64,000 bases of DNA, taken from positions 62,001 to 126,000 of the forward strand of contig JAHHHD010000007.1 of NCBI GenBank assembly GCA_019359505.1. Reading direction: 5' to 3'. The translations under genes and the position numbers were made by a program. The stretch is from Drouetiella hepatica Uher 2000/2452 (GTDB lineage: Bacteria > Cyanobacteriota > Cyanobacteriia > Elainellales > Elainellaceae). This document shows, one piece after another, positions 42,228 to 44,159 of this stretch; the stretch's first letter is position 1; each line of letters opens with the position of its first letter. The notes beneath the pieces were generated by a model. The model saw nothing but the letters and a program-made list of their open reading frames with translations. It was not told where the DNA came from and did no database searches.

Positions 42228-42716
42228 TCAATTAACAATGGTTTGCTTGCCCGAAATATGTTGAAGAAGCTCAGTCAATCTGTCTGAGTCGGTTAAGTAT
42301 AAATATCCCAGCAATGTCTCCAAACTTGTCGCCTGCTGATAAATCTGCGGATCTAGACGCTTTGGCCCTCTCGGCGACGCATTACGACCTCGCTTAAGAA
42401 CCTCCTTTTCAGAGTCCGTTAGGCGAGGTTGTAGCGAATTTAGATAACCTGCCTGCGCCTCAGCTCGAACCTCAGCAACGACCTGGTCGTGATAAAGCTG
42501 TATTCGCTTGGGCGGGAGTAGATGGTGTCGTCTGATGTGCAGCTCATATACGGCATCTCCTAAGTACGCTAGGGATGCGGGTGAAATCTGGCGCAACACA
42601 CCATCAGACCCTCCTAAGAAATCTTCGGATGACGAATTAGCTTCTGCGCTCCTATTCGAACCGGACAGAAGCTCATCTCTTGAAGCTCCGAAGTCGCCTT
42701 CCTCCTGAAAATTCAT
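42228..42716 (-). CDS. mrnC: Mini-ribonuclease III
   Basis: This is a double-strand-specific RNase made only of the RNase III catalytic domain, which in Bacillus matures 23S rRNA ends. The 162-residue protein has a variable Ser-rich N-terminus (about 1-38). The catalytic helices follow: LAYLGDAVYELHIRRHHL, with the Asp of the signature, then RGRNAS and ATSLETLLGYLYL with the second acidic cluster. It lacks a dsRNA-binding domain, as expected. It is followed on the same strand by rlmB, another 23S rRNA enzyme, an association seen in other bacteria. Confidence 0.92.
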   Translation of the reverse strand: MNFQEEGDFGASRDELLSGSNRSAEANSSSEDFLGGSDGVLRQISPASLAYLGDAVYELHIRRHHLLPPKRIQLYHDQVVAEVRAEAQAGYLNSLQPRLTDSEKEVLKRGRNASPRGPKRLDPQIYQQATSLETLLGYLYLTDSDRLTELLQHISGKQTIVN

Positions 42717-42772: not shown

Positions 42773-43141
42773 TCAGACTTTTTTGAGGTTTTCTAGGGCA
42801 ACCGTCACCGATTCTTGAAGCGATAGAAACTTGTCCAAACGCACAAGTTTGACTGTCTGAGTCACACGAGGATTGGTTACAATTTGTAAAGAACCTGCCG
42901 CGCCTTGCACCTTCTTAACAAGCTGAACCAAAGCGCCTAGTCCGGAGCTATCTACAAAATCAATTTGGGAAAGATCAAGAATTAAATTCTTAGGTCCTTC
43001 TTCAATATGCTTTTCTAGAACCTTACGAAATGTAGGCTCAGAAAATGCATCTAGCAAGCCTGCGAGGCGGAAGAGCTGACAGTTATCTCTAACTTCGCGT
43101 GTGCCTCTTAAACTAACGGTTAGGGGAAGTGAATCAGGAAT
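42773..43141 (-). CDS. STAS-domain anti-sigma-factor-antagonist-like protein with apparent ATT start
   Basis: The protein has one STAS domain. The phosphorylatable serine region is DLSQIDFVDSSGLGALVQL, and conserved strands follow (LQIVTNPRVTQTVKLVRLDKFL). Such proteins are antagonists or adaptors in partner-switching control by RsbW-type kinases. A TTG at 43057 would give 94 residues but would cut off the first strand and helix of the fold. Upstream the frame continues as PLTVSLRGTREVRDNCQLFRLAG, which fits the STAS N-terminus. The only likely initiator between the upstream TAG (43180-43178) and this sequence is ATT at 43141. It lies five bases after a perfect AGGAGG. That gives 122 residues; an assembly error is the alternative. 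Confidence 0.8.
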   Translation of the reverse strand: MPDSLPLTVSLRGTREVRDNCQLFRLAGLLDAFSEPTFRKVLEKHIEEGPKNLILDLSQIDFVDSSGLGALVQLVKKVQGAAGSLQIVTNPRVTQTVKLVRLDKFLSLQESVTVALENLKKV

Positions 43142-43277
43142 AAATTCCTCCTGGCTGGACGTTTCGTAGCCGCATAACTATTATCCGAGGTTTAAGTATA
43201 GGGCAGGGTAAGGTAGAATGCAACCTACTTTTAAGTCTTGCGCTATTGGGTTGGGGCACTTAGTCGCCTTAGGACAC

Positions 43278-44122: not shown

Positions 44123-44159
44123 TTTTTTGTTGGGTAGGCGAAGCCTACCCAACAAAAAA
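44123..44159. repeat. Perfect 17-bp palindrome with GAA triloop
   Basis: The arms TTTTTTGTTGGGTAGGC and GCCTACCCAACAAAAAA flank a three-base loop GAA. It lies in the divergent gap between radC and the unknown gene. The loop GAA between GC and GC is shared with the palindrome at 52340-52388. Confidence 0.9.

Follow-up and report, generated by a model that had tools for sequence, protein, structure and literature searches.

Where does translation of a small STAS-domain gene of Drouetiella hepatica Uher 2000/2452 begin, and why would a weak start codon be kept there? The gene lies in a stretch of 64,000 nucleotides (contig JAHHHD010000007.1, positions 62,001 to 126,000 of the forward strand), which we call the window. 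An earlier note, made from the letters of the window, had proposed that the gene starts at ATT behind a perfect AGGAGG. Our joint reading, to which we give a probability of roughly 80%, is that the gene encodes an antagonist of the Ssr1600 type initiated at AUU, that selection keeps the weak codon, and that the protein is scarce and its synthesis sensitive to IF3.

The gene and its start site in the window

Read from ATT, the gene comprises this codon and 121 further codons ahead of the stop codon (42775-42773, reverse strand; Table 1). The product carries a STAS domain at the family level (Pfam PF01740, 5.9e-19), scores above the cut-off of the NCBIfam model TIGR00377 ant_ant_sig (63.5 bits against 53.45) and matches by sequence the SpoIIAA chains 1th8_B and 1auz_A. 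The DSSG loop (D64 S65 S66 G67) is invariant in 24 aligned proteins; the phosphorylatable serine is therefore present, and it corresponds to S59 of Ssr1600 as numbered in PMC12329169. The fold of the product was taken from a structure model with a mean pLDDT of 78.5.

Table 1. Features of the STAS locus, in positions of the window
Feature	Position	Strand	Remark
STAS-domain anti-sigma factor antagonist gene (Ssr1600 orthologue)	42773..43141	-	122 codons and stop, from ATT
ATT start codon (putative)	43139..43141	-	ATT/ATC/ATA here in 358/388 class genomes and 251/255 non-identical loci
TT dipyrimidine directly 5' of the start codon	43142..43143	-	
Perfect Shine-Dalgarno sequence AGGAGG	43147..43152	-	5-nt spacer (AATTT)
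In-frame TAG stop upstream	43178..43180	-	closes the frame
TTG, codon 29	43055..43057	-	rejected as start; 3' of predicted strands 11-17 and 21-28
TATACT, possible -10 element	43195..43200	-	would belong to the gene's own promoter
RNase III-domain gene, next downstream	42228..42716	-	Pfam Ribonuclease_3, 3.5e-23

The earlier note described the site correctly. The ATT stands five bases behind an ideal Shine-Dalgarno sequence, and no ATG, GTG or TTG occurs in frame between the upstream TAG and the N-terminus of the domain, the first canonical codon being the TTG at codon 29. AGGAGG is found 4-9 nt before a canonical start in only one of the 50 long open reading frames of the window, and the motif of the STAS gene is therefore exceptional for this genome region. 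When both strands of the window were scanned for GGAGG-N4-7-ATH, three places had at least 60 open codons; the STAS site is the only one of them with at least 100 open codons and without an upstream canonical codon. The arrangement of ATT and AGGAGG at this gene exceeds chance.

Conservation of codon 1 in the class

The first 110 loci by protein similarity (L001-L110, from two sources that overlap) all have ATT, ATA or ATC at codon 1, with ATT in 105. A pattern with ATT, ATC or ATA at this place matched in 358 of 388 genomes of one class-level sample. This figure counts pattern matches, inspection by eye having been confined to the first places listed, and some of the extra places are chance matches (for example the second places in G019, G183, G246 and G274). 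The reversed pattern, used as a control, matched in 18 of the 388 genomes. A pattern with ATG, GTG or TTG at codon 1 matched in 24, among which inspection left a single true orthologue (G177), where the N-terminus of the gene is encoded and ATG stands at the same codon.

For counting we started from 332 loci, left out 30 infC loci and kept the 288 with the gene and at least 45 nt upstream; two other STAS genes (L241, L242) were dropped and identical copies merged, which gave 255 non-identical loci. Codon 1 is ATT in 181 of these, ATC in 40, ATA in 30, CTG in two, TTG in one and ATG in one. Weighting at 90% protein identity reduces the set to an effective 138 sequences and gives the same picture. 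The exceptions are the ATG of G177, a TTG in G422 and the CTG of G359 and G447. The pattern-derived part of the set required T at the second base and an LTV-LRG motif, and some patterns also A, G or T at the first base; ATG, GTG and TTG are admitted by these patterns, and ACG-type codons would be missed. L001-L110 and some later loci were found by protein alone, with no codon pattern.

The picture holds within families. Family f2, which its small genomes suggest to be Cyanobiaceae-like, has the match in 65 of 81 genomes, and the listed orthologues all have ATA, ATC or ATT (G397 and the second place in G215 are chance places). Family f36 matches in 11 of 15 genomes, its orthologues all having ATT, and two genomes missed by the pattern have CTG. 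In family f26 the match is found in 16 of 29 genomes, with ATT or ATC, and the genus missed by the pattern has ATT. A protein search of 50 genomes left 25 without a match at 1e-14, many of these incomplete. Among the other 25 one (G099) is cut before codon 1, and the rest have ATT (18), ATC (3), CTG (2) or TTG (1).

Judged from these sequences, a near-cognate start and a strong Shine-Dalgarno sequence are kept in almost every cyanobacterium examined. The earlier note had left it to the orthologues whether an ATG or the ATT is shared, and the answer is ATT, ATC or ATA. Its proposal that the gene starts at ATT gains from this shared codon, and also from the sole ATG orthologue, which has its ATG at exactly that place. 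Since independent genomes carry the near-cognate codon too, a sequencing error at the ATT is ruled out. The conservation of the codon is unusually deep compared with known conserved near-cognate starts. Such starts are few and, to our knowledge, which does not come from a survey, none outside infC extends over so wide a group.

Some lineages vary in other ways. The two CTG loci (L220 and L221, from G447 and G359) belong to one genus and have this other near-cognate codon at the start position behind AAGGAGG. In family f2 (for example L141-L170) the Shine-Dalgarno sequence is degenerate, with G runs and a spacer of 8-9 nt, and the codon shifts to ATA or ATC; the strength of the motif and the start codon seem to change together in this family. 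Three genomes that are 95-99% complete (G392 and G431 of family f2, and G295) gave no match to the STAS gene at 1e-9 and may represent lineage losses of the antagonist.

Relation to Ssr1600

The protein Ssr1600 of Synechocystis sp. PCC 6803 has been described as an anti-SigC antagonist (PMC12329169). Its residues L24, G43 and S59/S60, as numbered in that paper, are L30, G49 and S65/S66 here. Because these mutated or phosphorylated residues align with one constant offset of six, we take the STAS protein, like Ssr1600 an anti-anti-sigma protein, as its orthologue. According to the same paper, an RsbW/SpoIIAB-type kinase, which keeps SigC bound, binds and phosphorylates Ssr1600; in its unphosphorylated form Ssr1600 binds the anti-sigma kinase Slr1861, so that SigC is freed and growth slows down (PMC12329169). 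Overexpression of Ssr1600 slowed growth in high CO2, suppressor mutants contained only traces of the protein, and the authors call the ratio of anti-SigC to antagonist critical (PMC12329169). Ssr1600 was readily detected by antiserum and hence is not vanishingly rare (PMC12329169). The genome of D. hepatica has seven HATPase_c_2 matches over the cut-off among 21, which are possible kinase partners. Its best match to an RsbW/SpoIIAB-type kinase (G000:C43:137685-137969) is a candidate partner; it shares the contig with the STAS gene, at a distance of about 32 kb and thus beyond the window.

Because the published residue numbers are offset by six, the annotation of Ssr1600 seems to begin at codon 7 and to be six codons too short, its start lying downstream of the conserved ATT (PMC12329169). 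The main text of that paper never mentions the start codon. In open-licence full text we found no description of the start of ssr1600 or its orthologues, and an earlier notice elsewhere is possible. Eight genes of Nostoc have been revised to ATA or ATT starts (PMC8557916). The codon from which this model anti-SigC antagonist is annotated is probably wrong, and a construct for overexpression in which another leader takes the place of the native one would leave out an element kept by evolution. Developers of gene finders would have in the STAS gene an unambiguous example of a start that is misplaced systematically throughout a bacterial class.

Probable reasons for the retention of the weak codon

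Whichever letters it has, a start codon is translated as methionine, and the protein itself therefore does not require isoleucine at codon 1. On the gene tree codon 1 has changed 26 times; 23 of these changes stay within ATT, ATC and ATA, and the remaining three lead to one ATG, one TTG and one CTG. Three fourfold sites of the same gene served as control; 49 of their 206 changes lead into G, compared with 3 of 26 at codon 1. The binomial probability is low for a single change to ATG in 26 (about 0.008) and not significant for three in 26 that end in G (about 0.10), the statistic being a rough one from a single-gene tree. As a paralogue control we took 20 other STAS genes of these genomes, and canonical starts are available in all 20. 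Tandem duplicates in G008 and G026 have ATG and GTG near the matching place, with a weak Shine-Dalgarno sequence. These duplicates (G008:C23:141771-142106 and G026:C4:651620-651964, at L088 and L091) lie directly downstream and share 54% and 46% identity with the query; the first copy retains AGGAGG and ATT, unlike the duplicate. Since the pairing of a weak codon with a strong Shine-Dalgarno sequence is so widely kept, the low output of the regulator is probably regulated.

Formyl-methionine would be inserted at the AUU by the initiator tRNA, and the near-perfect Shine-Dalgarno sequence together with the dipyrimidine at -1/-2 would make initiation at this codon possible. Selection would keep the codon weak, so that Ssr1600 stays scarce relative to its kinase/anti-sigma partner. 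IF3 destabilises initiation at non-canonical codons. In E. coli, infC and pcnB are limited in expression by an AUU start, and infC is under IF3 control. As near-cognate starts are rejected by IF3, a relaxed discrimination by this factor would be expected to raise the synthesis of Ssr1600. The conserved codon, the conserved Shine-Dalgarno sequence and the closed upstream frame are observed; initiation at the AUU itself is inferred, and low output of Ssr1600 and its control by IF3 are suggested by analogy with known genes such as sigR and infC.

The closest parallel is the Streptomyces sigR gene, which starts with GTC and is repressed by IF3, and where IF3 is needed for the correct ratio of sigma to anti-sigma factor (PMC5472188). 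Both genes encode a component of a sigma switch and combine a non-canonical start with an extended Shine-Dalgarno sequence (AGGAGGTG in sigR); a stoichiometry set by the weak codon would be a further shared feature, which for the STAS gene we infer (PMC5472188). There are also differences. SigR is a sigma factor with GTC or GTT as start codon, while here the product is an anti-anti-sigma factor, and conservation of the sigR start was reported for 34 Streptomyces genomes, compared with a whole bacterial class here (PMC5472188). In S. aureus, AUU and AUA starts with an extended Shine-Dalgarno sequence gave about 10% of the AUG output in poor medium (PMC13009471). The S. aureus genes cvfC1 (AUU), ccpN (AUA) and infC (AUA) resemble the STAS gene in that a regulator has a conserved start of this kind behind an unusually strong motif (PMC13009471). 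However, they encode different proteins and are conserved among staphylococci, ccpN also in B. subtilis, and their starts were shown by ribosome profiling, whereas the start here is proposed from sequence conservation (PMC13009471). An infC-like regulation, at which the earlier note had hinted, is consistent with the long retention of the weak codon and with these published cases (PMC5472188, PMC13009471).

The strongest competing explanation accepts the ATT start and sees in it a dose limit only. The weak codon and the strong Shine-Dalgarno sequence would then set a low and constant level, with no signal through IF3. We place this a little below even odds. It agrees with cvfC1 of S. aureus, where AUU cuts the output to about 10% without any effect of the medium (PMC13009471), and with sigR, for which the authors could not show a stress-dependent derepression (PMC5472188). 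Yet a weaker Shine-Dalgarno sequence in front of an ordinary codon could set the dose just as well, which is an argument and not a test, and the near-cognate codon is kept in nearly all sampled lineages, mostly with a strong motif.

A more far-reaching version of the AUU-initiated, IF3-sensitive reading, which we consider unlikely, is that the AUU start makes Ssr1600 a class-wide read-out of the state of translation initiation and couples ribosome state to SigC. If free IF3 fell relative to 30S subunits, or if fidelity dropped, more Ssr1600 would be made; the extra protein would titrate the anti-sigma factor, SigC would be freed and growth slowed. Such a start-codon sensor would tie the state of the ribosome to a growth-limiting sigma factor throughout the class.

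Other possible starts

Conservation by codon position amounts to 1.10, 1.27 and 0.32 bits downstream of codon 1, versus 0.08, 0.07 and 0.07 bits upstream (-45 to -25); coding periodicity begins at codon 1. AGGAGG is present in 176 of the 255 loci, with the 5-nt spacer in 164 of those. Both -1 and -2 are pyrimidines in 237 of the 255 loci, compared with a background of 2140 dipyrimidines in 7395 dinucleotide places (29%), and a dipyrimidine before the start codon has been reported as a cyanobacterial initiation signal (PMC5622118). These features together point to initiation at the ATT, AUU in the message.

A start further downstream, at the TTG of codon 29 in the window and at GTG or TTG codons 4-11 elsewhere, would correspond to the database annotation. 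The numbering in PMC12329169 implies such a start at codon 7, which is TTG in 40 of the 255 loci. We nevertheless hold it very unlikely. The first downstream canonical codon is scattered among the loci (codon 9 in 35, codon 7 in 34, codon 29 in 32, codon 11 in 22, others in the remainder), and none of these codons shares the conserved Shine-Dalgarno spacing. Codons 5-13 are among the most constrained stretches of the gene, and a start at codon 29 would remove the first two long strands of the predicted fold. It counts against the ATT start that only 128 of 255 loci are free of canonical codons within codons 2-21, the other 127 offering alternative starts on paper.

The window also contains a leader reading frame of 13 codons (ATG 43175 to TGA 43134) from which ribosomes might enter the STAS frame, either through re-initiation or through a +1 shift like that of prfB. 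Its end overlaps the ATT, an SD-like AGGAGG lies ahead, and the same ATG is found in L001, L002 and L008. We judge this route highly improbable, and reject the +1 frameshift, since in most relatives the ATG is absent or in another frame (L021, L035, for example), while AGGAGG and ATT are kept. An upstream in-frame ATG, with the ATT as an ordinary internal isoleucine codon, has next to no chance: 79 of the 255 loci do have some in-frame canonical codon further upstream, but the other 176 have none between the upstream in-frame stop and codon 1, 60 have a stop four codons upstream that overlaps the Shine-Dalgarno sequence (typically within TAGGAGG), no codon periodicity precedes codon 1, and in the window the TAG contradicts it.

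Leader, infC and neighbouring genes

A structured leader or riboswitch was rejected. Rfam gave no match in the window between 42000 and 45000, and the leader folds no better than shuffled sequences (z 1.03, -0.17, 0.89 and 0.62 for two stretches of the window and two relatives). Of the 255 loci, 160 have a -10-like hexamer in the 130 nt before the gene, most often between -36 and -63, a count made without a shuffled control.

Control through an ATT shared with infC was likewise rejected. We found infC in 57 of 60 genomes, and 26 of the 30 fetched loci could be read by motif. In all 26 a canonical codon precedes the INERIR motif, at scattered places, the true infC starts not being proven by this, and unlike in E. 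coli infC no conserved ATT position was seen in them. With canonical codons scattered in this way, infC is not the bearer of the conserved ATT in these genomes; the STAS gene is. Their sequences give no sign that IF3 regulates its own synthesis as it does in E. coli.

Among the 191 loci where 700 nt or more were available downstream, the next gene on the same strand is an RNase III-domain homologue in 177. The protein in the window is presumably of the Mini-III (mrnC) type, judged by its size and domain, and in the window a gene for an rlmB-type 23S rRNA methylase comes after it. These neighbours in rRNA maturation give the locus a ribosome theme, which is suggestive only. RadC upstream of the gene turned out not to be a conserved neighbour, being present in only 23 of the 181 loci where 1200 nt or more were available on that side. 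At 44123-44159 of the window, two divergent genes are separated by a perfect inverted repeat (17 bp, loop of 3 nt) that resembles a terminator or a small mobile repeat.
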